From an uncultured Verrucomicrobiota bacterium (lineage in GTDB: Bacteria; Verrucomicrobiota; Verrucomicrobiia; Palsa-1439), in NCBI GenBank assembly GCA_903825435.1, contig CAIKAP010000129.1:1-45549 (forward strand): DNA of 45,549 nucleotides, given 5' to 3'. The position numbers and the translations under genes were made by a program. The notes under the pieces are model-generated. The model was not told the DNA's origin. It saw only the letters and a program-made list of their open reading frames with translations, and did not search any database. Every line of letters starts with the position of its first letter. The first letter of the stretch is position 1. This document shows, in pieces, positions 6,461-34,646 of this stretch.

Positions 6461-8875
6461 TCATACTCGCACTCTCACCAACGGTTCGATGCCGTGTTTC
6501 TCGTGGTGATGGCTCGGGCATTTTTGTCCGGCGCTCTCGATGAAAATCGCTTCGACGGGACAATCCGTGCGGCAAACATCGCAGCGCGTGCATTTCTCCG
6601 TGTCAATTTTGTGGCGCTGGTACGGCGTGACGGCGATGGCGTCGGCCGGACAATGTTGTGCGCAGATGGTACAACCAGTGCAGTTATCCTGGACGACGTA
6701 CTTTATCAGCGGCTTGCATTTACCGGCGGGACAACGACCGTTGATGTGCGCATCGTACTCGTCGCGGAAATACCGGAGCGTCGTCAATACCGGATTCGGC
6801 GCGGTGCGACCGAGGCCGCAGATGCTGCCTTGCGCGGTAAACGCGGCGAGACGTTGGAGTTCTTCGATGTCGCGCGCCGAACCTTTACCGTTGCAAAGGC
6901 GGTCGAGAATTTCCCACATCCGCGTCGTGCCGATCCGGCAGAACGTACACTCGCCGCACGACTCGGCTTTGAGGAACGACATGAAATAGCGCGCGACGTC
7001 CACCATACAATCATCCTCGTCGAGCACAACAAGTCCGCCCGAACCCATGATTGCTCCGGCGGCGACGAGCGCTTCGTAATCGACGGGCGTGTCGGCGAGC
7101 GACGCGGGAATACAACCACCGGACGGGCCGCCGATTTGGACGGCTTTGAGGCGTTTGTTGTCGGGAATGCCGCCGCCGATTTCTTCGACGATTTGCCGGA
7201 TGGTAATGCCCATCGGCACTTCAATGAGGCCGGTGCGATTAATTTTACCGGCGAGCGCGAAAACTTTTGTACCTTTGCTTTTCTCGGTGCCTAGCGCGGC
7301 AAATGTTCCGGCTTTGTTCCGGATGATCCACGGCAACATCGTCAACGTCTCGACGTTGTTGATGAGCGTCGGTCGGCCCCAAAGTCCGAGGTCGGCAGGG
7401 AACGGCGGCTTGAGTCGCGGAATGCCGCGTTTACCTTCGATGGATTCGATGAGCGCGGTTTCTTCGCCGCAAACGAACGCGCCTGCGCCTTCAAAAATTT
7501 TCAGGCGGAAATCTTTTCCGAGGAACGCGCGTTCTTCGAGCAATCGCATCGCCTCGCGTAATCGCGTCACGGCGCGCGGATATTCGGCGCGAACGTAAAT
7601 GTAACCTTCGGTCGCACCGACGGCGTGACCGGCGATGAGCATTCCCTCGACGAGCCGGAACGGAAACGATTCCATCAGCATCCGATCCATGAACGCGCCG
7701 GGATCGCCTTCATCGCCGTTGGCGATAATGTATTTGAGGCCGTCAGGCGATGCTGCGTTGCGGACGCGCTGCCATTTTACGCCGGTCGGAAAACCAGCGC
7801 CGCCGCGTCCGCGCAATCCGCTCGCGATAATCTCGGCAATGACCTCTTCCGGTTTGCGACTGAGCGCAATGGTCAGCGATTTGAAACCGCCGTGCGCGAG
7901 ATATTCGTCGAGGTCGAGCGGATCCATTTCGCCGAAACCTTCCGTCGCGACGCGGACTTGCCGGTCCATAAACGCGACGACCGGAGTTGCCGCGATGTCG
8001 AGCGTGTGTTTTGCGACGCGCTCCGCGCCGTTCTGCGCGGTGACGAGTTCCTCCAGTTTGCGGTCGGCCCAACGAACGATGCGCCGCGTAAAACTGGTCG
8101 GACGGAAATGTCGGCGTACAATCGCCTCGGCGTCGTCGGGTTCGACCTTCGCGTAAAATGCTGCCGGTTTATTCGGCAACCGGACTTCGACGATCGGTGT
8201 TTGATGACACATACCGACGCAACCGACGCGTTTCACCGGCACATCGAGTCCGAAATTTTTCACCGTGTCGCGGAGCAGATGAAAAAGTTCGTCACTCCCT
8301 TTTGCCATGCAACACGAGCCGAGGCCGACGCGAATCTCCGGAACATTGAGGTCGTTGTTCCGGCGGCAAAGCACGGCGTCAACGTCAGCGATGGTTTCGT
8401 GTCGCGTCGCGCGGAAATCCTCAATCATCATGCCGACGGTGTCGGGCGCGAGATGACCGTACGTCGCGTGATCAATCATCACAACCGGCGCGAGCGTGCA
8501 ACAACCGAGACACGCGACGCGCTCGACGGTAAACTCGCCGCTCGGACTCGTGTCGTCGCCGAGCGGAATCAGAAGCTCGCGGTTGACGGCGTCGTGAATA
8601 TTTTCCGAAGCTTTCACGTGACAAGCCGTGCCGTGGCAAACGCGCACCATGTGTTGGCCGGTCGGCTTGAAACGGAACTGATGATAAAACGAGCCGACGC
8701 CGACAAGATGCGCGAGACCGATGCCGGTCATTTCGCTGACGCGCCGCAACACTGGGTCGGGAAGATACCGGTACTCTTCCTGGATGCCTTGCAAAATCGG
8801 AATCGTCGCGTCCACACCACGTCCTGTCCGCGCGAGCAGCTTCTCAAGAAAATTATCGTAAGATTCCTGTATCAT
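6461..8875 (-). CDS. NuoE-NuoF fusion, NADH-oxidising flavo-Fe-S subunit with C-terminal ferredoxin
   Basis: The 804-residue protein should take electrons from NADH through FMN into Fe-S clusters. Residues 1-155 form a NuoE-type thioredoxin-like [2Fe-2S] domain (Cys80, Cys85, Cys122, Cys126). A second thioredoxin-like domain follows (Cys188/189, Cys219, Cys223). The NuoF domain has the NADH/FMN glycine loop GLRGRGGAGFPTG (353-365), an SLBB region and the N3 ligands CGECTFC (640-646) plus Cys686. Two [4Fe-4S] ferredoxin motifs (Cys732-742, Cys762-772) close the protein. This is the architecture of HoxF/HndC/HydB-like diaphorases, but no hydrogenase or other Nuo subunit is present. It overlaps the upstream propeller gene by 4 bp (ATGA), so its partners are probably the membrane polyferredoxin and the propeller. 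Confidence 0.93.
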   Translation of the reverse strand: MIQESYDNFLEKLLARTGRGVDATIPILQGIQEEYRYLPDPVLRRVSEMTGIGLAHLVGVGSFYHQFRFKPTGQHMVRVCHGTACHVKASENIHDAVNRELLIPLGDDTSPSGEFTVERVACLGCCTLAPVVMIDHATYGHLAPDTVGMMIEDFRATRHETIADVDAVLCRRNNDLNVPEIRVGLGSCCMAKGSDELFHLLRDTVKNFGLDVPVKRVGCVGMCHQTPIVEVRLPNKPAAFYAKVEPDDAEAIVRRHFRPTSFTRRIVRWADRKLEELVTAQNGAERVAKHTLDIAATPVVAFMDRQVRVATEGFGEMDPLDLDEYLAHGGFKSLTIALSRKPEEVIAEIIASGLRGRGGAGFPTGVKWQRVRNAASPDGLKYIIANGDEGDPGAFMDRMLMESFPFRLVEGMLIAGHAVGATEGYIYVRAEYPRAVTRLREAMRLLEERAFLGKDFRLKIFEGAGAFVCGEETALIESIEGKRGIPRLKPPFPADLGLWGRPTLINNVETLTMLPWIIRNKAGTFAALGTEKSKGTKVFALAGKINRTGLIEVPMGITIRQIVEEIGGGIPDNKRLKAVQIGGPSGGCIPASLADTPVDYEALVAAGAIMGSGGLVVLDEDDCMVDVARYFMSFLKAESCGECTFCRIGTTRMWEILDRLCNGKGSARDIEELQRLAAFTAQGSICGLGRTAPNPVLTTLRYFRDEYDAHINGRCPAGKCKPLIKYVVQDNCTGCTICAQHCPADAIAVTPYQRHKIDTEKCTRCDVCRTDCPVEAIFIESAGQKCPSHHHEKHGIEPLVRVRV
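7304..7322 (+). repeat. TGTTCCGG-N3-TGTTCCGG motif inside the nuoEF gene
   Basis: The two octamers are separated by CTT. This is one of seven copies of the motif in the window, read on the plus strand, antisense to nuoEF. Confidence 0.7.
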
Positions 8876-23070: not shown

Positions 23071-26000
23071 TCAGACTGTTTCCACCAATTCCGGTTTCGC
23101 GCGGTCGGCGACCGGCGCGTTGCCGTTCCCGTTCCCGCCGGCGAATAATTGCCGGATCATGACGAGGAACTGGTCGGTCTCGAAATGATGCAGTTGGATC
23201 GCGCGGGCCGGGCACTCCGAAGCGCAGATGCCGCAGCCCATGCACTTCGCGGCCTCGATCTGGCCTTTGCCGTCCTTGTTGCAGAATGGCGCGGAGTACG
23301 GACAGACCGTGACGCAGGTCATGCACGAGATGCATTTCTGCTGCGTGACGTACGAGACTTGCGCGCTGACATCGAGTTGCGTCTTGGACAACACCGTTGC
23401 GGCGCGCGCGGCGGCGGCGCGAGCCTGGGAAATATTTTCGTCGATGAATTTCGGCGAATGCGCCAGGCCGCACAGGAAAATGCCTTCGGTCGCAAAATCC
23501 ACCGGCCGCAGTTTCATGTGGGCTTCCACGTAAAACCCGTCGGCGTTGAGCGGCACCTTGAGCATGTCGGACACGCGTTTGTTGTTCGGCAAATCCACCT
23601 CGATGCCGGTGCTCAACACGAGATTGTCGGCCTCGATCTGGAGCGGCTCGGGGAAATCAGGGCTTTGCAACGTAACGACCAACCCGCCGGTGTCGCTCAC
23701 CTGCGGCGGATTTTCCGGCGCGTAACGGATGAACACCACCCCGGCTTCGCGCGCTTGCTTGTAATACAACTCACGGAAACCATACGTCCGCACATCGCGA
23801 TAGAGCACGAAAACGTTCGCGTCGGGATCTTGCTGTTTGATCGCGAGCGCGTTCTTGACAGCCAGCGAACAACAGATCCGGCTGCAATACGCGTGCTGCT
23901 CGTTGCGCGAGCCAACGCACTGGATCATCACCACGTTCTGGCCCTTGGCCGGATACGCGCGGTCGTGCAACTGCTTCGCCAACTCCACCTGCGTCAACAC
24001 ACCCGCCGCGCGGCCGTACAGGAAATCCTTCGTCTTCGCCTCGCGCGCGCCGGTGGCCACGACAACGGCGCCGCCGGTAATCTCGTTTGTCTGACCGGCT
24101 TTGCGCAGCGTCAGGTGGAATTTGCCAACGTGGCCTTTGACGCCGGCCACTTCGGTTTCGAGATACAACTTGATCTGCGGATGCGTCTCGACTTGCCGAA
24201 TGAGCGCGCCGGTAAACTCGCTGAGGTCCGGATGCTCGAACGTTCCCGTAATCTCGTGCAATGTCCCGCCGAGCCGGTTCGATTGTTCGATCAGGTGCAC
24301 CGGGAATCCCTGGTTCGCCAGCGCCAGCGCCGCGGTCATGCCGCTCAAGCCGCCGCCGATGACCAACCCGGTCTGCTCCACCTTCAACGTCCCGCCTTCC
24401 AGCGGCGACAACTCGCGCGCCCGCGCGATCGCCATCTTCACCAGTTCCACCGCCTTGTCGGTCGCCGTCTGCGGCGCCGCCGAGTGCACCCACGAACACT
24501 GGTCGCGGATATTGGCCAGCTCGAACAAATACGGATTCAGCCCCGCTTCGCGCAACGTCTCGCGGAACAACGGCTCGTGCGTGCGCGGCGTGCACGACGC
24601 CACCACGATCCGGTTCAGCCGGTGTTCGTGGATCATGTCCTTGATGTTCGACAAGCTCGTGTCGGAACAGGTGAACATCGTGTGCGTCGCCAACACCACG
24701 CCCGGCTGTTGCGCGATTCGTTCCACGACCTGCTCGACGTTCACCACCGACGCGATGTTCATGCCGCAGTGACAGACAAACACACCGACGCGCGGCGGTT
24801 CATCCGCGACATCGTGCTCGATCGGATAACTCTTCTTCGTGACCAGCGAATTGCGCGCCGGGGCCAGCAACTCCATCGCCATCGACGCCGCCGCGCTCGC
24901 CTGCACCACCGTTTCGGGAATGTCCTTCGGTTCCTGGAACGCGCCGCCGACAAACACGCCGGGCCGCGACGTGACCAACGGCGCCAGCCGGTCGGTCTTG
25001 CAGAAACCAAAATCGTTCAACTCGATGCCGAGCCGGGCCGCCGACCGCGTCAACGAGTCCGGCGGTTCCATGCCGACCGACAACACGACCAGATCGAACT
25101 CACGTTGCAGAAGCTGACCGTCGCCGTCGAGGAACTGCACGCGCAAATCCCGGCTGCCGGGAATCTGGATGATCCGCGACGGGATGCTCTTGACGTAGTG
25201 AATGTGTTTCTGCGCCTTCGCCCGTTCGTAATATTGGTCAAAATCTTTGCCGTGCGCGCGAATGTCCATGTAGAAAATCGTCGCATCCAATCCGGTCACG
25301 TGATCGCCGGCGACCAACGCCTGTTTCGTCGCCATCATGCAACAGATCGACGAACAATAATCGTGGCCGCTCGCCGCGTCGCGCGAGCCGACGCATTGAA
25401 TCCACGCGATCCGCTTCGCTTCCCGGCCATCCGACAACCGGATGACGTGCCCCTCGAACGGCCCCGCCGCCGAGAGCATCCGCTCGAACTGCACGCTGGT
25501 GACGACGTTTGGATACCGGCCGTACCCGAACTCGCCTTTCCGCCCGGCGTCGAATTCCTTGAACCCCGGCGTCAACACGACCGCGCCGACGTCGAGCTTG
25601 ACCGACACCTCGCGCATCGAATGGTTGATGGCCTGCTGCTCGCACTTCTCGACGCACTGATTACATTCCGAGCAGAGCGCGCAATTCAAGCATCGCTCGG
25701 CTTCGGCCAGCGCCTGTTCCTCGGTCAATCCCTTTTCGACTTCGTCAAAATTGTTTTTCCGGCTCGCCGGAGCTAATTCTTCCGGCCGCGACCGGCTCTT
25801 CTTGGCGAGTTTTTCCGTCTCCGGCAGCATTTCTTCCGGAATCGGCTGCACCGTGCTCTCAAACCGGTCCGCCAACATGTCCTTGCCGGTCAGGTAACGC
25901 GTGATGGACTCCGCCACACGCTTGCCGGCCGCAACGGCATCAATCACCGACAACGGACCGGACGCGTTGTCGCCGCCCGCGAACACACCGGCGATGGATG

Positions 26001-27570
26001 TTTGGCCGGTCACCGGGTCGGCCTTGAAACAGCCGCGCGCGTTCTCGACCGGGATGTGCTTCACCAAATCTTCGTCCGTCATCTGGCCGATGGCGACGAT
26101 GATCTGGTCCACTTCCACCGTGGTCAAATCGTTTTCGTCGAAGGCGGGACTGAAACGTTTCTGCTCGTCGAACACGCGCGTGCACCGCTTGAGTTCGATG
26201 CCGGTCACGGAACCGTTACCGAGAATGCGTTTCGGTCCCCAGCTATTGCGAATTTTGATATTCTCCGCCAGTGTCGCTTCGACTTCTTCCTTGTACGCCG
26301 GCATCTCGTGGCGCGCTTCGAGCGACACCATCTCGACGCTCTGCGCGCCGAGCCGCAACGCCGTCCGCGCCACGTCCACCGCCACGTTGCCGCCGCCAAT
26401 CACCAACACGCGCCCCTTGACCGCCGGCTTCTGCGGCGACGCCGCGTCGCGCAAAAATTCCACGCCGTGCAGGACGTTCTGCTTGTCTTCGCCGTCAATG
26501 CGCAGCTTCCGGCTCTTGTGCGCGCCGGCGGAAATCAGGATCGCGTCGTTTTGGTCGCGCAACGCCTGGAACGTGATGTCCCGGCCAACCCGGCAGTTGT
26601 AAACAAGCGTCACGCCCTTGCGCCGGATCAACTCGACTTCGTGGTCCAGCACTTTCTTCGGCAGCCGGTATTCCGGAATTCCGTACCGGAGCATCCCGCC
26701 CGCCGCCGACTGCGCTTCGTACACCGTCACCGCAAACCCGGCATCCGCCAAATCCGCCGCCGCCGTCAACCCGGCCGGCCCGGCGCCAATGATCGCGACT
26801 TTTTTCGCGTCCGCGGCCGGTTTCTTTTCTTCCGGTAACGTCAGTTGACCGGCCGCAAGCAGTGCGGCTTCCTGATCGGACGCAAATCGTTTCAGCAACC
26901 GGATCGCGATCGCTTCGTCGGCGGTGCCACGCGTGCAGACCGACTCGCACGGATGCGTGCAAATCCGGCCGCAGATGCCGGAGAGCGGATTGCGCTGGCG
27001 AACCAGCGCGACCGCCTTGAGATATTCCTTTTTCTTGATGAGCTGGACGTAGCCCTGGACGTTGACGCGCGCCGGGCATTTCACTTTGCAGGGCGCGTGG
27101 CCTTGCTTGAGAATGCCGAAAATGTTCGGCGTCGCTTGCGCGTAGAGTTTGGCGATGCCTTTGCGCGTGCCGAGGCACCGGTTGAATTCATCCGGCACAT
27201 CGACGGGACAAACTTGCGTGCATTGGCTGCAACCGGTGCACTTGTCCTCGTCCACAAACCGCGGATGGCGTTTGACCGTCGCCTGAAAATGTCCCGGCGT
27301 GCCCTGCAAATCCGTCAGCTCGGAGAGCGTAAGGATTTTGACGTTCAGGTTGCGGGCGCACTCGACGAGTTTTGGCGAAACGATGCACGTCGCGCAGTCG
27401 CCGGTCGGGAAAGTTTTGTCGAGGTGGGCCATCATGCCGCCGATGGCGCCGTCGCGCTCGACGAGATACACCTTGAAGCCGCTGTTGGCCAGGTCCAGCG
27501 ACGCCTGCACGCCGGCGATGCCGCCGCCTTGCACCAGTACCGCGCCAATTTTTTTATTGATGGTGGTCAT
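23071..27570 (-). CDS. hdrA: HdrA-GltD-HdrA fusion, flavin/Fe-S electron-transfer hub
   Basis: The product has 1499 residues. Residues 1-150 begin an HdrA (FAD loop GGGIAG, CTGCSQC ferredoxin motif at 111-117). A complete GltD/NfnB-like NADPH-dehydrogenase module is inserted at about 155-625 (CKVKCPARVN, dinucleotide loops GAGPAG at 262 and GGGNVA at 392). A CLNCALCSEC cluster site and the rest of the first HdrA follow to about 905. A second HdrA (about 925-1499) has its own FAD loop (GGGLSG near 1072) and C-terminal CISCMTC and CMGCGIC ferredoxin motifs. HdrA proteins bifurcate or transfer electrons between NAD(P)H, ferredoxin and HdrBC/MvhD. No Shine-Dalgarno is evident. The 5' end and leader are duplicated at 37339-37465. 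Confidence 0.93.
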   Translation of the reverse strand: MTTINKKIGAVLVQGGGIAGVQASLDLANSGFKVYLVERDGAIGGMMAHLDKTFPTGDCATCIVSPKLVECARNLNVKILTLSELTDLQGTPGHFQATVKRHPRFVDEDKCTGCSQCTQVCPVDVPDEFNRCLGTRKGIAKLYAQATPNIFGILKQGHAPCKVKCPARVNVQGYVQLIKKKEYLKAVALVRQRNPLSGICGRICTHPCESVCTRGTADEAIAIRLLKRFASDQEAALLAAGQLTLPEEKKPAADAKKVAIIGAGPAGLTAAADLADAGFAVTVYEAQSAAGGMLRYGIPEYRLPKKVLDHEVELIRRKGVTLVYNCRVGRDITFQALRDQNDAILISAGAHKSRKLRIDGEDKQNVLHGVEFLRDAASPQKPAVKGRVLVIGGGNVAVDVARTALRLGAQSVEMVSLEARHEMPAYKEEVEATLAENIKIRNSWGPKRILGNGSVTGIELKRCTRVFDEQKRFSPAFDENDLTTVEVDQIIVAIGQMTDEDLVKHIPVENARGCFKADPVTGQTSIAGVFAGGDNASGPLSVIDAVAAGKRVAESITRYLTGKDMLADRFESTVQPIPEEMLPETEKLAKKSRSRPEELAPASRKNNFDEVEKGLTEEQALAEAERCLNCALCSECNQCVEKCEQQAINHSMREVSVKLDVGAVVLTPGFKEFDAGRKGEFGYGRYPNVVTSVQFERMLSAAGPFEGHVIRLSDGREAKRIAWIQCVGSRDAASGHDYCSSICCMMATKQALVAGDHVTGLDATIFYMDIRAHGKDFDQYYERAKAQKHIHYVKSIPSRIIQIPGSRDLRVQFLDGDGQLLQREFDLVVLSVGMEPPDSLTRSAARLGIELNDFGFCKTDRLAPLVTSRPGVFVGGAFQEPKDIPETVVQASAAASMAMELLAPARNSLVTKKSYPIEHDVADEPPRVGVFVCHCGMNIASVVNVEQVVERIAQQPGVVLATHTMFTCSDTSLSNIKDMIHEHRLNRIVVASCTPRTHEPLFRETLREAGLNPYLFELANIRDQCSWVHSAAPQTATDKAVELVKMAIARARELSPLEGGTLKVEQTGLVIGGGLSGMTAALALANQGFPVHLIEQSNRLGGTLHEITGTFEHPDLSEFTGALIRQVETHPQIKLYLETEVAGVKGHVGKFHLTLRKAGQTNEITGGAVVVATGAREAKTKDFLYGRAAGVLTQVELAKQLHDRAYPAKGQNVVMIQCVGSRNEQHAYCSRICCSLAVKNALAIKQQDPDANVFVLYRDVRTYGFRELYYKQAREAGVVFIRYAPENPPQVSDTGGLVVTLQSPDFPEPLQIEADNLVLSTGIEVDLPNNKRVSDMLKVPLNADGFYVEAHMKLRPVDFATEGIFLCGLAHSPKFIDENISQARAAAARAATVLSKTQLDVSAQVSYVTQQKCISCMTCVTVCPYSAPFCNKDGKGQIEAAKCMGCGICASECPARAIQLHHFETDQFLVMIRQLFAGGNGNGNAPVADRAKPELVETV

Positions 27571-28341: not shown

Positions 28342-28403
28342 AATGCTCGCGATAATAAAAGTCCTCACCGCGTTGTCAACATCGGAATGGCGGAACATCA
28401 CAG

Positions 28404-28884
28404 CGGCGCTCGCAACGGTGACGCCACCGTTGGCGACGGCGATGCCGCCGTTCGCAACTGGAACACCACCGTCCGCGACGGCGACAGCGGCACCGGCGAA
28501 AAAATCAGCACCGTCCGCAACTTGACCCGCGCACCGCGCGACGGTGACGCCACCGTTGGCAACAGGAACACCACCGTCCGCGAACTGGACAGAGGTGTCC
28601 GCGACACCGACAGCGGCGTCCGCGCCGCCGACATCGCAACCGCGATGGTGACAGTGCCGTCCGCGACGGTGACACTGCCCTCCGCGCCGATGAAAGCACG
28701 TCCGCGACGGTGACAGTACCGTCCGCGCCGATGAAAGTGGTGTCCGCGAGGGCGACAGCACCGTCCGCGACGCCGACAGTGCGCTCCGCGCCGCCACCAG
28801 CCTATTCCGCGACCGCGAAAGCGCCGTCCGCGACGACGAAAGCCCCTCCCGCGAAACCGTAAACGGCGCCCGCGAAGCCGTCTG
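28404..28884. repeat. degenerate 21-bp tandem array, about 23 units
   Basis: Units in strict 21-base register from 28404 follow a consensus near CACCGTCCGCGACGGCGACAG; two or three units are 20 bases long. One plus-strand frame reads seven-residue repeats of the type TTVRDGD. The minus strand reads heptads such as VADGGVP and, after a shift, LSPSRTV. The 20-base units break both frames, arguing against one continuous protein. There are no spacers between units, so it is not CRISPR. It begins 63 bp upstream of the hypothetical gene at 27646-28341. Confidence 0.85.
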
Positions 28885-29115
28885 CACATGTTGATTGACA
28901 GGGATTTACGGGGATTTGCCGAAGCAAAGCGGCAGGCATCAAATTTCCGACCATTTCGACCACCGGACTACAAATAGCCGGAGGTCTGGCCCATCCAAAC
29001 GACCTAATCGAAGGAGAGGCGGCAATTCCCATCGGCACTGCACCGCAGGCAGGTTCGTTGGGTCTCGCGCAGTCGGCTTCGACAAGTGAGGCTGCAAGAA
29101 TTTGGTTTGACGAAA
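28885..29115. other. intergenic leader region before nikR, no gene seen
   Basis: Between the 21-bp array and the nikR operator lie about 230 bases. I found no cobalamin-riboswitch core, no NiCo-riboswitch pattern and no credible ORF. A minus-strand frame (28802-29146) crosses it but ends in the repeat array and shows no family features. The nikR promoter should lie here. Confidence 0.4.
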
Positions 29116-29143
29116 GTGTTACGTTTAATATAAAAGGTAACAC
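29116..29143 (+). promoter_or_regulatory. NikR operator
   Basis: A perfect inverted repeat GTGTTAC-N14-GTAACAC ends one base before the nikR ATG (29145). From memory this is the operator form reported by comparative genomics for NikR in some deltaproteobacteria (GTGTTAC-N13/14-GTAACAC). Its position over the ribosome-binding region predicts autorepression of the whole operon when nickel is plentiful. Confidence 0.8.
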
Positions 29144-29567: not shown

Positions 29568-31522
29568 ACTCCACCACACTCACGCTGCTCGCTTTTGCTG
29601 TATGTCTTGGCGTTGCGGCGGCAGACACGAATATTGCCAGCCGTTTATCGGAAACCAATGCCGTCTCCCGGATGCCGGAAGTCATCGTAACGGGTACACC
29701 AATCATCGAGGGGAATCGTCTGACGCCGTTGGCCGGACAGGTCACCTCGGTCACGGGAGAACAAATCAAGGAATTGAACGCGCAGGATTTGCAGTCGGCG
29801 CTGCGCGAAACGCCGGGCGTGGTGGTTTCCCATTTTAATCCCGTCGGCAGTTTCGGCGGCGGCGAGGGCGGCGCGGTGTTCATCCGTGGTATGGGCGCTG
29901 CGCGGCCCGGTGCGGAGATTCAGTTGGCCATTGATGGCATCGCAAACTTCAACAGTCTGTGGACACATCCGTTGTTGGATATGCTCAGCGTGGATATTGC
30001 CCAGCGCATTGACGTGTACAAGGGCGCGCAGCCGGTGTTGTACGGCAACATGGCGTTCGGCGTGGTGGACATGATTACCAAACGTCAAACCGAACCGGGC
30101 TTCACCACGAGCCTGCAACTCGCCGGCGGCTCGTACAACACCGTGGTCGAAGTCGCCGAGCACGGCGGCAAGGTGGACAACCTCGATTATTACCTGCTCC
30201 AAAGCTATCGCGCCTCTGATGGCAACCGCGCGCATTCGGCGGGCGAGTTGCAGAATTACTTTGGCCGGTTCGGCTACGACTTCAATCCGAATTGGGAAGC
30301 GCACGTGGTGTTCAACCGCACGGACAATTGGGCCGAAGACCCTGGTCCGTCGCCGAAGCTGGTTCCGCCCGCGCAGGTGTACAGCAACGGGCGATTTAAC
30401 GACGATGATTATCTAACCATTGTGACGCTGGCGAATCATTACGAGCGGGCGGACGGCTATGTGAAGGCGTATTGGAATCGCGGCACGTTGAATTGGGTCA
30501 ACCAATACGACTCCACCACAAAATTGAATGATGAAACCACGGTGACCGGCTACGACAATTTTGGTGTCAAGACACGCGAGACGTTCAAGCCGTGGGACGG
30601 TGGCGAATTGATGACCGGTGTGGACGTGGATTTCATCAGTGGCAAATACCACGACGTGACGGCGACCACGCTGACGGACTTTCCGCGCGAGACGTTTCGG
30701 ATCGTTTCGCCATATGCGTCGCTCAGCCAGCGGTGGGATTTCAACAACGACGTTTATCTCCAGCCGTCAGCAGGGTTCCGGTATTTCAATCACGATGTTT
30801 TTGCCGACGAATTTGCACCGCAAGCCGGGCTGGTGCTCGGCGTCAAGGAGACGGAGTTCCACGCGTCCTACGCTCGCGGCGTCAACTATCCCGGCATTTT
30901 TGTGGATGCGTTCCCACCCGGCAACAATTTGGGACACAAGCTGAATGCCGAGACGCTCGACCACTACGAACTCGGCGCCAGCCAGCGGTTCGGGAAGCTC
31001 GCCAAGCTTGACCTCACGTTGTTCTACGACGGTGGCCACGACCGGATCGTCCTGACTTATCCGCCGTTCCCGCCGGTGTGGAAAAACATCGGGAATTTCC
31101 GGACCGAGGGACTGGAAACCACGATAACGGTCACGCCGGTCCGCGATCTCGCACTGTTCGGCGGTTTCACCGTGCTCAATGCCAGTCCCAGCGATCTGCC
31201 TTACGCGCCGCAATGGACGGCCAGTGCCGGGGCGACCTACCGGTTCTTCGAGCGCTTTCGTCTGAGCGTGGACAGTCAGTACGTTGGCGACCAGAACGCG
31301 CTTTCACGTGACCGCGACTTCAAGGCGATCAACACCAGCCAAATCAGTTCCTACTTTCTAGTGAATGCGCGACTCAGCTACGATTTTTCGTTGCCGTCTT
31401 GGCGACTCCACGGTCAGATTTTCCTCGCCGGTCAAAACCTCACCAATGCCGACTACCAGCAGAAACCGGGTTATCCCATGCCCGGCAGCAACGTGATGGG
31501 CGGCGTCAAACTGGAGCTATGA
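29564..31522 (+). CDS. TonB-dependent outer-membrane receptor, probably for nickel
   Basis: The product has 652 residues. A signal peptide (MNSTTLTLLAFAVCLG...) is followed by a TonB-box-like EVIVTGT, the plug domain (LQSALRETPGVVV, FIRGMG, QRIDVYKGAQPVLYG, GVVDMITKR) and a 22-strand-type barrel ending in GGVKLEL. Substrate cannot be read from the sequence, but coupling to nikR and to the NikMN permease makes nickel (or a nickel chelate) the best guess; cobalt is the alternative. Confidence 0.93.
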   Translation: MNSTTLTLLAFAVCLGVAAADTNIASRLSETNAVSRMPEVIVTGTPIIEGNRLTPLAGQVTSVTGEQIKELNAQDLQSALRETPGVVVSHFNPVGSFGGGEGGAVFIRGMGAARPGAEIQLAIDGIANFNSLWTHPLLDMLSVDIAQRIDVYKGAQPVLYGNMAFGVVDMITKRQTEPGFTTSLQLAGGSYNTVVEVAEHGGKVDNLDYYLLQSYRASDGNRAHSAGELQNYFGRFGYDFNPNWEAHVVFNRTDNWAEDPGPSPKLVPPAQVYSNGRFNDDDYLTIVTLANHYERADGYVKAYWNRGTLNWVNQYDSTTKLNDETTVTGYDNFGVKTRETFKPWDGGELMTGVDVDFISGKYHDVTATTLTDFPRETFRIVSPYASLSQRWDFNNDVYLQPSAGFRYFNHDVFADEFAPQAGLVLGVKETEFHASYARGVNYPGIFVDAFPPGNNLGHKLNAETLDHYELGASQRFGKLAKLDLTLFYDGGHDRIVLTYPPFPPVWKNIGNFRTEGLETTITVTPVRDLALFGGFTVLNASPSDLPYAPQWTASAGATYRFFERFRLSVDSQYVGDQNALSRDRDFKAINTSQISSYFLVNARLSYDFSLPSWRLHGQIFLAGQNLTNADYQQKPGYPMPGSNVMGGVKLEL

Positions 31523-32154
31523 TGAAACACTTATTACCTTTCATTCTCGCATCACTTTCCGTAGCGCTGACGGCCCGCGCGCATGACGAATCAACCACTG
31601 GCGCGACCGTCCGTCGTCCGGTCGTACTCGCCGCGTTTCCCACAAAACCGGAACAATTTCAGAGCGACGTGCGCCCGTTTGTCGAACGCATCATCGCGCG
31701 CTACGGCGAAGAAGAATGGAACACTGCCGTGCTCGCTCACGAGTTGCACCGGCATCTCGGCACGTTTTCCATTCTCGGTGCGAAGATGGGAGTACGCGCC
31801 CGCGAACTTCTCGGCGCGTCGCTGGACGACCTCAGCGTCGAGAGCCACGCCGGGCTGAAACCGCCAATGAGTTGTTTCAACGACGGATTGCAGGTCGCCA
31901 CCGGCGCCAGTCTCGGTCGCGGGACAATCCGCGTCGCCGATACCACTACGCCGGTGCCTGAAGCGATATTTATTTTCGGTAACAAGCGGCTCCGCCTCCG
32001 GGTCAAGCCCGCCGTTTTCGAGCGGCAACAAGAAGCAATGCGGAAAATCACCGGCGGCTTGAAATCTGCGGAAGCGCGGCCCACCTCTCTCGAAGCATGG
32101 GCGGAGCTTGATCGCCGGGAGATTTTCGAGGAAACACCGGAAGTCAAACCCTGA
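31519..32154 (+). CDS. secreted FmdE-family protein in a nickel-uptake operon
   Basis: The product has 211 residues. An N-terminal signal peptide (hydrophobic stretch ending ALTARA near residue 21) precedes a domain resembling FmdE/FwdE: HLGTFSILGAKMG, ARELLG, PPMSCFNDGLQVATGA, GRGTI. In that family the His and Cys of these motifs bind metal, and FmdE genes were first seen beside formylmethanofuran dehydrogenase. Export and the position between a TonB receptor and NikMN suggest a periplasmic metal-binding or delivery role. The ATG at 31519 overlaps the receptor stop. Confidence 0.75.
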   Translation: MMKHLLPFILASLSVALTARAHDESTTGATVRRPVVLAAFPTKPEQFQSDVRPFVERIIARYGEEEWNTAVLAHELHRHLGTFSILGAKMGVRARELLGASLDDLSVESHAGLKPPMSCFNDGLQVATGASLGRGTIRVADTTTPVPEAIFIFGNKRLRLRVKPAVFERQQEAMRKITGGLKSAEARPTSLEAWAELDRREIFEETPEVKP

Positions 32155-32166
32155 GCGAGAATTCTC

Positions 32167-33105
32167 ATGCACATTCCTGATGGCTTTTTGAACACGAAGA
32201 CAGCGGTAGCGAGCGGCGTACTCACGACGGCGGGAGTGGGCGCGGCATTATGGCAGGCGAAACGCACATTGCCGGCGCGACGCGTGCCGTTGCTCGGCCT
32301 GACGGCGGCGTTCATTTTCGCGGCGCAGATGTTGAACTTTCCCGTGGCAGCCGGTACGTCGGGACATCTGGTCGGCGGTGTCTTGGCGGCGGTCTTGGTT
32401 GGCCCCGGCCCGGCGGTGATCGTGATGACGGCGGTGTTAATGGTACAATGTTTCCTGTTCGCCGACGGCGGCGTGACGGCGCTCGGCGCCAACATATTTA
32501 ACATGGGGCTGGTCAACGTCATTGCCGGTTACGCGATTTATCGGCTCATGCGCCGGCTGGCCGACGGGCGGCGCGGAATGTTACTGGGCGCGGCGTTCGC
32601 AGGCTGGTGCGCAACGGTATTGGCGGCGGTCTGTTGCGCCGGCGAGCTTGCGTGGTCCGGCAAGATCGCATGGCGGCTGGTCTTTCCCGCAATGGCTGGC
32701 GTTCACATGCTCATCGGTATCGGCGAAGGCACGATCACGGCGCTGGTGCTGCTGGCGATTGCGCAGGGACGCCCAGACCTTATCGACCGAAACGACGAGG
32801 CGCCGCAAACTGCGGCGAAAGTCGGGTACGGTTTGCTCGTCGCGCTGGGCTTGGCATTGTTTGTATCGCCCTTCGCGTGCGAATGGCCGGATGGTTTGGA
32901 GAAGGTCACGGCGAAACTCGGCTTCGAGCCGCATGCCGTGACCGCGCCGCTCGTCGCCTCGCCCTTCCCGGACTACAAACTACCGTGGCTCGGCGAAGCG
33001 GGTTGGGTCACGGCCCTGGTCGGTGCGCTCGGCACGCTGGCTGCGTTCGCATTTGCGTGGCTGCTGGCTCGGCTGTTATCGCCGAGCACAACTTCTGAAA
33101 CTTAA
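32167..33105 (+). CDS. nikMN: NikM-NikN fused membrane component of an ECF nickel/cobalt transporter
   Basis: The product has 312 residues. It begins MHIPDGFL, the conserved CbiM/NikM N-terminus whose Met1-His2 end coordinates the metal. About seven membrane segments follow, including the QMLNFPVAAGTSGHLVGG block. The C-terminal part carries a PDGLE motif (CEWPDGLEKV, about residue 240) and a last helix, the NikN module. The energising subunits NikQ (membrane) and NikO (ATPase) are not downstream; the gene ends in a convergent gap before hdrB. Repression by NikR supports nickel as substrate. Confidence 0.93.
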   Translation: MHIPDGFLNTKTAVASGVLTTAGVGAALWQAKRTLPARRVPLLGLTAAFIFAAQMLNFPVAAGTSGHLVGGVLAAVLVGPGPAVIVMTAVLMVQCFLFADGGVTALGANIFNMGLVNVIAGYAIYRLMRRLADGRRGMLLGAAFAGWCATVLAAVCCAGELAWSGKIAWRLVFPAMAGVHMLIGIGEGTITALVLLAIAQGRPDLIDRNDEAPQTAAKVGYGLLVALGLALFVSPFACEWPDGLEKVTAKLGFEPHAVTAPLVASPFPDYKLPWLGEAGWVTALVGALGTLAAFAFAWLLARLLSPSTTSET

Positions 33106-33252: not shown

Positions 33253-34092
33253 TCATTGCACTTTCCCCAGAACGTTCGTGGCCGGCACCATCAGTTTTTC
33301 AAAACCGAGTTCGCCGGCGCTGTAGCCGAGGCACAATCCAAGCAACTGCGTGAGATAAACCACCGGCATCTGATATTTTTTCGCCATGTCCGCCTGCCGC
33401 AGATCGAGGTTGATCTGGCACATCGGGCAACTGACCACCACGCAGTCCGCCCCGGCCTGCTCCGCCATGTCCAAAATTGATTCCGAAAGATTGACCACCA
33501 CGTCGGTGCGCGACAACGACAACCCGCCGCCGCAACACTCCACCTTGCCCGGCCAGTCGAGGCTCTGGCCGCCCATCGCCGTCACGAGCCGGTCGAGCGA
33601 CTGCGGATTCTCCGCGTCATCAAATTTCATCACGCCCGGCGGACGCACGAGCAGGCAGCCGTAGTAACACGCCACCTTCAGTCCGTTCAGCGAACGCTTG
33701 AACGATTGCTTGATCGCCGGCAGGCCGACGTCTTCGAGCAACACTTCGATCAGATGTCGGACCTTGACCGAGCCGTCGTAATCCTGGTCGAGCGCCGCGC
33801 GCAGCTCGGCGTGGTTGGTGACTTCGTGGTTGGCCGCTTTCATCCGGTTGTAGCAGGCGGCGCAATTCACCAGCATGTCCAGCTTCATGTCCCGGACTTT
33901 GACCAGATTCGCCGCGGCCAGCGACACCGCAAGCTGCCGGTCGGTTTGGTGCGCCGCCGTCGCGCCGCAACACGTCCAGCCCGGCGGCTCTTGCAACTCG
34001 ATGCCGAGCGACTTCGCGACCGCGAGCGTGGACAGGTTCATGTCGCGCGCCGTGGATTCGGCGGAACAGCCCGGATAATACGCGTACTTCAT
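33253..34092 (-). CDS. hdrB: heterodisulfide reductase-like subunit B
   Basis: The product has 279 residues and two CCG domains: YYPGCSAES...GWTCCGAT and, after CYYGCLLVRP, KVECCGGG and CPMCQINLD. These bind the non-cubane [4Fe-4S] clusters of HdrB. In bacteria without coenzyme M such HdrBC pairs serve other acceptors, here probably the MetFV module. The ATG at 34092 overlaps the hdrC stop. Confidence 0.95.
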   Translation of the reverse strand: MKYAYYPGCSAESTARDMNLSTLAVAKSLGIELQEPPGWTCCGATAAHQTDRQLAVSLAAANLVKVRDMKLDMLVNCAACYNRMKAANHEVTNHAELRAALDQDYDGSVKVRHLIEVLLEDVGLPAIKQSFKRSLNGLKVACYYGCLLVRPPGVMKFDDAENPQSLDRLVTAMGGQSLDWPGKVECCGGGLSLSRTDVVVNLSESILDMAEQAGADCVVVSCPMCQINLDLRQADMAKKYQMPVVYLTQLLGLCLGYSAGELGFEKLMVPATNVLGKVQ

Positions 34093-34646
34093 GCTTTCCC
34101 GCCTTTGGTCTTCGCAAAAATTCGTTTTACGGTTTTGGTGTCCGCGCCGCGCGGCGGCAACAGCGCGAGCTTGCCTTTCTTGAGCATCGTCGGAAATTTT
34201 TCCGTGTCGGCCATCAACTTGCCGGTGCCGAGCTTGTAGGCGGCGACCATGCCGAGTTCGTAGGTGCGGCCGAATTTCTCGACCGTCTTGAGGAACGCCC
34301 GGTTGAACAACGGCACATTGCCGGCCGGCGCGGGCACGCCTTTCGCAATCGCCAGTTGCCGCAACGCGTCCATCACCGCCGCGACATCAATCCCCATCGG
34401 GCAACGCGCCGAACAGGTGCCGCACGACGCGCACGTCCAGATCAAATCGCTCTCCAACAACTCCGCCCCGGCGCCGAGGTGCAACCGCCGCATCACTTCC
34501 GACGGCCGGGTCTTGGTCAGCTTCGCCACGGCGCAACCGCTGGAGCATTTCTTGCATTGGAAACAGACGCTCAGGTCCACGCCGCAGAGTTCCTTGATCG
34601 CGCGTTTCAGGCCGGGACCGGATTTGTTTTTCTTGATGGTGATCAC
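34089..34646 (-). CDS. hdrC: heterodisulfide reductase-like subunit C
   Basis: The product has 185 residues and two [4Fe-4S] motifs, CFQCKKCSSGC and CASCGTCSARCP, passing electrons from HdrA to HdrB. It is coupled to hdrB and starts 15 bp after the amidotransferase-type gltB gene, a linkage that ties HdrBC to the glutamate-synthase-like subunits rather than to hdrA, which lies elsewhere in the window. Confidence 0.95.
   Translation of the reverse strand: MITIKKNKSGPGLKRAIKELCGVDLSVCFQCKKCSSGCAVAKLTKTRPSEVMRRLHLGAGAELLESDLIWTCASCGTCSARCPMGIDVAAVMDALRQLAIAKGVPAPAGNVPLFNRAFLKTVEKFGRTYELGMVAAYKLGTGKLMADTEKFPTMLKKGKLALLPPRGADTKTVKRIFAKTKGGKA

Follow-up and report, generated by a model that had tools for sequence, protein, structure and literature searches.

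A nickel operon with an FmdE-like gene

The stretch of DNA analysed here, referred to as the window, comprises 45,549 nucleotides and originates from an uncultured Verrucomicrobiota bacterium. Four genes on its forward strand encode a repressor, an outer-membrane receptor, an FmdE-like protein and an importer component, and a NikR operator precedes them (Table 1). Read from the sequence, they are closely packed in the order nikR, TonB receptor, fmdE, nikMN. The receptor gene overlaps both nikR and fmdE, and the fmdE ATG at 31519 shares bases with the TGA of the receptor gene (31520-31522). A sequence-only reading had described a signal-peptide-bearing FmdE-like protein between a TonB receptor and NikMN. 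Its coordinates proved exact, the product matches PF02663, and the gene order was recovered with Pfam and NCBIfam.

Table 1. Features of the nickel operon and of the FmdE precursor in the window
Feature	Position	Strand	Basis
NikR operator GTGTTAC-N14-GTAACAC, 0 mismatches	29116..29143	+	Motif scan; 14-nt inverted repeat
nikR, nickel-responsive repressor, 140 aa	29145..29567	+	NikR_C 1.8e-33; PRK04460 equivalog over cut-off
TonB-dependent outer-membrane receptor, 652 aa	29564..31522	+	Plug domain 1.7e-19
Exported FmdE-like protein (predicted), 211 aa precursor	31519..32154	+	PF02663; predicted signal peptide
Predicted signal peptide, residues 1-21	31519..31581	+	Rule-based call
His22, predicted first mature residue	31582..31584	+	Rule-based call; family-wide +1 His excess
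His77-Arg-His79, equivalents of two FmdE metal ligands	31747..31755	+	Alignment to 2gvi
Cys119, equivalent of ligand Cys55/Cys61	31873..31875	+	Alignment to 2gvi
NikMN fusion (CbiM + PDGLE), ECF S-component, 312 aa, N-terminus MHIPDG	32167..33105	+	Pfam/NCBIfam

NikR scores 183.6 bits with the PRK04460 equivalog model, whose cut-off is 105. The TonB receptor did not reach the equivalog cut-off of any NCBIfam model. Neither nikQ nor nikO adjoins nikMN in the window because the next genes lie on the opposite strand; the locus holds NikMN alone and not a complete NikMNQO set.

Both a NikR gene and an upstream NikR box are present, which places the operon under predicted NikR control. The box, GTGTTACGTTTAATATAAAAGGTAACAC, ends 1 bp before the nikR start. 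It matches perfectly the published consensus GTGTTAC-[N13/14]-GTAACAC (PMC545781), which was derived for delta-proteobacteria, the host here being a member of the Verrucomicrobiota. By chance, 0.67 matches with up to three mismatches are expected in the window, and the only site found has none. A cobalt operon was considered and rejected, as NikR is present and neither a cobalamin riboswitch nor any other Rfam family was detected in the window.

Regulation by NikR together with a NikM-type importer is also described for the delta-proteobacterial NikMNQO and NikKL systems (PMC545781), and the nikR - TonB - nikMN loci of Caldithrix abyssi have a TonB receptor as well (PMC5317091). Unlike at the window's locus, FmdE goes unmentioned in the available portions of both papers.

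The surroundings of the operon show some further features. A repetitive GTCCGCGACGGTGACA-like stretch (28398-28889) lies just upstream, within long opposite-strand open frames. A 1499-aa open frame on the minus strand (23071-27570) appears by eye to consist of two HdrA-like parts flanking a part that resembles the small subunit of glutamate synthase. Genes with Fe-S and CCG domains occupy 33253-34646 on the same strand as this open frame.

Export, fold and metal site of the FmdE protein

Both profile and fold assign the window protein to PF02663. Pfam places the FmdE domain at residues 76-187 (E 5.7e-14, 52.8 bits against a gathering cut-off of 22.9). Modelled with AlphaFold2, the mature form reaches a mean pLDDT of 91.6 and shows the alpha+beta core fold of the family. 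Clear matches among solved structures were limited to the three FmdE structures, with VIA Z scores of 16.0 to 2gvi, 13.9 to 2glz and 12.2 to 3d00 (next row 4.2) and Foldseek values of 3.8e-8 (2gvi) and 2.5e-6 (2glz).

The protein is predicted to be exported, as the sequence-only reading had proposed. The rule-based call separates MMKHLLPFILASLSVALTARA from HDES, with the cut after ARA as the best of four candidate sites. With the same script, L008 and L009, two other FmdE proteins from this phylum, obtained no signal-peptide call; both carry an FHGHxC motif and a Cys-rich tail.

The metal site of the family has been solved. In 2glz, a mixed Zn/Ni ion with more zinc than nickel is bound by His15, His17, Cys19 and Cys55, and the equivalent residues in 2gvi hold only zinc (PMC2954224). 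The four-ligand site is not universal in PF02663, since 3d00 lacks two of the ligands (PMC2954224). The window protein shares the fold, the His-x-His plus Cys arrangement and the NDG.Q motif with 2gvi (Ta1109), 2glz (Dhaf_2992) and 3d00 (SYN_00638). In contrast to these, it has a predicted signal peptide, no C-terminal zinc finger (2glz has none either) and, in the alignment to 2gvi, Gly81 in place of the Cys of 2glz and 2gvi (Cys19/20).

These positions do not vary in the family. His77, His79 and Cys119 are invariant in all 81 aligned rows, from which one L069 ORF fragment without the FmdE motif was excluded. Gly81 is equally invariant, so that three of the four ligands of the FHGHxC + Cys site are retained and the second Cys is always Gly. 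In precursor numbering, the complete list of residues conserved in 81/81 rows is Glu75, His77, His79, Gly81, Ser84, Gly87, Lys89, Met90, Gly91, Pro116, Cys119, Asp122, Gly123, Gln125, Gly129 and Gly133.

A second candidate ligand lies at the predicted mature N-terminus. By the rule-based call, the signal peptide is followed directly by His, as in the secreted N-terminal-His metal proteins of the DUF4198 and Ang-1 type. Such proteins have recently been identified through this very residue (Nature Communications, 2025; PMC12537917). A cleavage site was predicted for 64 family members, 41 of which have His as the first mature residue, compared to 2/177 other exported proteins of the same loci. 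Three neighbour clusters (tetrapyrrole-methylase, DUF4198 and CarboxypepD_reg type) reach 7/26. The associated p value of 3e-27 overstates the case because related sequences were treated as independent; after grouping at 60% identity, His is in the majority in 18 of the 28 groups with a call. The remaining family ORFs comprise 16 of the 81 without a signal-peptide call, owing to contig ends, overcalled starts and n-regions that fail the rule, and one without a cleavage site. L041, which received a false internal signal call, is counted among the 64 as non-His. It is also the exception among the ten solo forms, i.e., proteins with the FmdE domain alone (nine loci and the window), nine of which show [AGST]H in the segment that separates the hydrophobic stretch from the FmdE domain.

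DUF4198 has been shown experimentally to bind nickel (Kd 18 nM), with His1 and His18 as ligands, and TonB receptors and NikR are encoded near it (PMC12537917). The window protein resembles DUF4198 (PDB 9GCB) in its predicted mature N-terminal His, with TonB and NikR genes likewise adjoining. Unlike FmdE, DUF4198 adopts a beta-sandwich fold and takes His1 and His18 as nickel ligands. The DUF4198 profile does not match the window protein, for which Pfam gives FmdE only. The resemblance is thus one of a single feature, the N-terminal His, and not of family membership. DUF4198 genes occur in 8/80 loci with FmdE relatives, and neither FmdE nor nucleoside hydrolase appears in the main text of PMC12537917. 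In the AlphaFold2 model, residues 1-6 of the mature form have a pLDDT below 50, too low to place the N-terminal His at the His/His/Cys site or away from it.

Relatives, hydrolase fusion and nickel context

The window protein is rare within its phylum. A protein query matched 4/93 near genomes, including the window's own and one weak match. A three-row profile matched 3/387 genomes of a phylum sample, namely the window's own and two with FHGHxC-type FmdE proteins. A genome scan with the single window protein found no relative. The alignment-based scan, with one genome per species, yielded 85 loci with relatives, of which 80 underlie the counts given here. They belong to Verrucomicrobiota, Desulfobacterota and other delta-proteobacteria, Aminicenantes, Zixibacteria, Acidobacteria, Gemmatimonadetes, Bacteroidales and others. 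On plasmids, one weak FmdE match was found, adjoining molybdopterin genes.

Most relatives are larger than the window protein. At about 490 aa, they combine a signal peptide, a nucleoside hydrolase domain (PF01156) and then FmdE, according to Pfam on L013, L021 and L044 and to the N-terminus list. Fusions of this kind, e.g., L021:3176-4702 and L044:5089-6543, make up most of L010-L089; in many of them, the predicted signal peptide gives way to a mature N-terminal His. The tree of 81 rows contains 70 fused rows, 10 solo rows including the window, and one unlabelled row (L087); the fused labels of L047, L062, L063, L069 and L074 were set by hand (cut, or motif missed). Solo rows are scattered and the starred branches force at least four changes, which points to repeated gain or loss of the hydrolase part.

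The hydrolase domain matches solved nucleoside hydrolases such as 1yoe (YbeK/RihA). In 26/26 rows chosen from the fused ones, the DTDxxxDD aspartates, N161 and D233 are kept. The profile alignment, however, shows that three residues of the solved enzymes are missing: the Asn that follows the first turn, the Glu that precedes N161 and the His in the final HD. All three have catalytic roles in nucleoside hydrolases. As residues at active-site positions differ, the domain may only bind. The window protein has no PF01156 domain and no nucleoside hydrolase was found in its genome; in this bacterium the FmdE part must therefore do without such an enzyme. A hidden hydrolase acting in trans was rejected on the same ground.

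The nickel context is conserved in part. NikR, NikM, NikQ or a UreH/HupE-like permease occurs in 20/80 loci (NikR in 13, NikM in 10, NikQ in 8 and the permease in 5), and these nickel genes are of several kinds unrelated to one another. When TonB receptors, DUF4198, NikL-like and tetrapyrrole-methylase-like genes are added, 40/80 loci have at least one marker and 40/80, some of them contig ends, have none. The ABC ATPase marker C3, in which NikO is mixed with other ATPases, was left out of both counts. All these numbers are lower bounds because many contigs end close to the gene. In the starred clade of the window protein, the proportions rise to 11/31 with nickel genes and 26/31 with any marker. 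Sites resembling the NikR box (up to three mismatches) precede operon genes in 12/80 loci (191 starts), compared with 3/328 control starts; several starts per locus were scanned and the best kept, so that the first figure counts loci and the second counts starts. Over entire loci, NikR boxes show no excess (1/1/8/104 observed and 0/1/9/175 in shuffles at 0/1/2/3 mismatches). Conserved operon context and NikR sites were among the checks that the sequence-only reading had named, and within the protein's own clade both speak for it.

Some loci deviate from this arrangement. In L010, the position of NikMN right behind the FmdE fusion gene is taken by a UreH/HupE-like permease (6564-7244), and different inner-membrane importers thus seem able to replace each other. 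The 12 loci of a Bacteroidales clade, mostly from rumen samples, have none of the markers in their operons. In this clade (L078, L081, L082, L085 and L089), the fusion adjoins a short-chain dehydrogenase and a neighbour which we take to be a carbon-starvation-like permease; nickel genes are absent from the operon and His/His/Cys is kept.

In 10/80 loci, all from delta-proteobacteria/Desulfobacterota, there is a tetrapyrrole-methylase-like gene whose product has an exported-looking N-terminus. The copy in L022 (4146-5039) matches PF00590 and has a hydrophobic, signal-peptide-like N-terminus; the others lie in L023, L025, L026, L027, L028, L029, L034, L038 and L042. The protein occurs in loci that also encode TonB receptors, DUF4198 and the FmdE fusion. 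As SAM is not expected in the periplasm, it may be a binding protein.

Possible roles of the FmdE protein

The FmdE protein may well be a periplasmic nickel-binding protein of a nickel-uptake route that hands its metal to NikMN; we consider this a little better than an even bet. When nickel is plentiful, NikR would repress the operon. When it is scarce, the TonB receptor would carry nickel across the outer membrane, probably as a chelate. The FmdE protein, predicted to be exported and probably dimeric as its solved relatives are, would bind the metal or the chelate through the putative binding residues His77, His79 and Cys119, possibly with the mature N-terminal His22, and would then pass the metal to inner-membrane NikMN. 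A periplasmic nickel carrier is the simplest account, supported by the metal site known from solved FmdE proteins, by the His/His/Cys residues kept here, by the predicted N-terminal His and by control through NikR. Against it stand the Gly that always replaces one of the four solved-site ligands, the strict nickel genes found in only 20/80 loci, the 40/80 loci without any marker and the Bacteroidales clade whose operons have none. The sequence-only reading had likewise suggested a periplasmic carrier of nickel or a chelate. The predicted export, the nickel context and the conserved His/His/Cys fit this suggestion, but it comes out only in part, as the fused relatives make an enzyme a rival.

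A carrier alone leaves the hydrolase fusion of most relatives unexplained, and an enzyme acting on a nickel complex remains a serious rival, possible though on balance unlikely. Such a periplasmic enzyme would free nickel from an organic chelate imported by the TonB receptor. The FmdE domain would hold the metal end, and in the fused relatives the hydrolase would attack or bind a ribose-like part of the ligand. The architecture of the 70 fused rows (signal peptide, hydrolase, FmdE), the hydrolase residues kept in every row inspected, the invariance of Glu75, Lys89 and Met90 in FmdE and the tetrapyrrole-methylase-like gene are in favour of this idea. However, the window protein and nine other loci are without the hydrolase domain (L041 also without a signal peptide), the window's genome offers none, and the altered active-site positions would suit a domain that only binds.

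A bolder form of this enzyme idea is decidedly doubtful. Exported N-terminal-His FmdE domains and the remodelled nucleoside hydrolase would together form a new class of envelope nickel proteins that dismantle a ribose-containing nickel complex in the periplasm, and the short form in the window would have kept only the nickel-holding half. If true, a nucleoside-like nickel ligand, new to science, would be imported by TonB receptors in many phyla.

There is a small chance that another metal (zinc, cobalt or copper) is handled, or that the protein provides general periplasmic metal buffering. CbiM-type S-components also serve cobalt. The solved sites hold more zinc than nickel (2glz) or zinc alone (2gvi) (PMC2954224). 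The control of the operon by NikR and a perfect NikR box argues against it, as does the window's lack of Rfam matches, cobalamin riboswitches included. A structural or regulatory partner without a metal role, e.g., an assembly factor for the receptor-permease pair, is very improbable, since His/His/Cys is invariant in 81/81 rows, even if the conserved Asp/Gln motif does lie at the dimer interface of the solved structures (PMC2954224).

The FmdE family is best known from inside methane-making cells. The sequence-only reading described its members as usually discussed as cytosolic companions of molybdenum enzymes. This view is too narrow: in the 2010 structure paper, most PF02663 genes stand beside metal-ion transporter genes, and one structure has a mixed Zn/Ni site (PMC2954224). 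For the window protein, a partnership with a molybdenum enzyme was rejected: its neighbours are nickel genes, and it lies in a nickel operon instead of an Fmd operon. The same paper proposed a role in metal-ion transport from gene context, the biological role being then open (PMC2954224). The clade described here would give that idea a definite setting, with the periplasm, nickel and NikR control.

To our knowledge, ECF importers have no classical binding protein of their own, and Gram-negatives require nickel transfer from the outer-membrane receptor to these importers. With the window protein, the secreted nickel proteins with an N-terminal His, described only recently, gain a further candidate that offers two testable sites, the predicted N-terminal His and the His/His/Cys site. 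Its relatives reveal a widespread fusion of nucleoside hydrolase and FmdE in nickel operons. No report of exported FmdE, of its N-terminal His or of the hydrolase fusion in nickel operons was found in the open-licence literature.

The rest of the genome offers further nickel genes. Contig C17 (L091:4062-6585) encodes a second NikMN together with NikQ, which is intact, and a NikO-type ATPase, with no FmdE adjoining. NikMN of the window may either share this energy module or work alone. The likely nickel users of the genome are [NiFe] hydrogenase-type large subunits (contig C103), a Prismane-family protein, which may be a CODH or a hybrid-cluster protein, and LarC.
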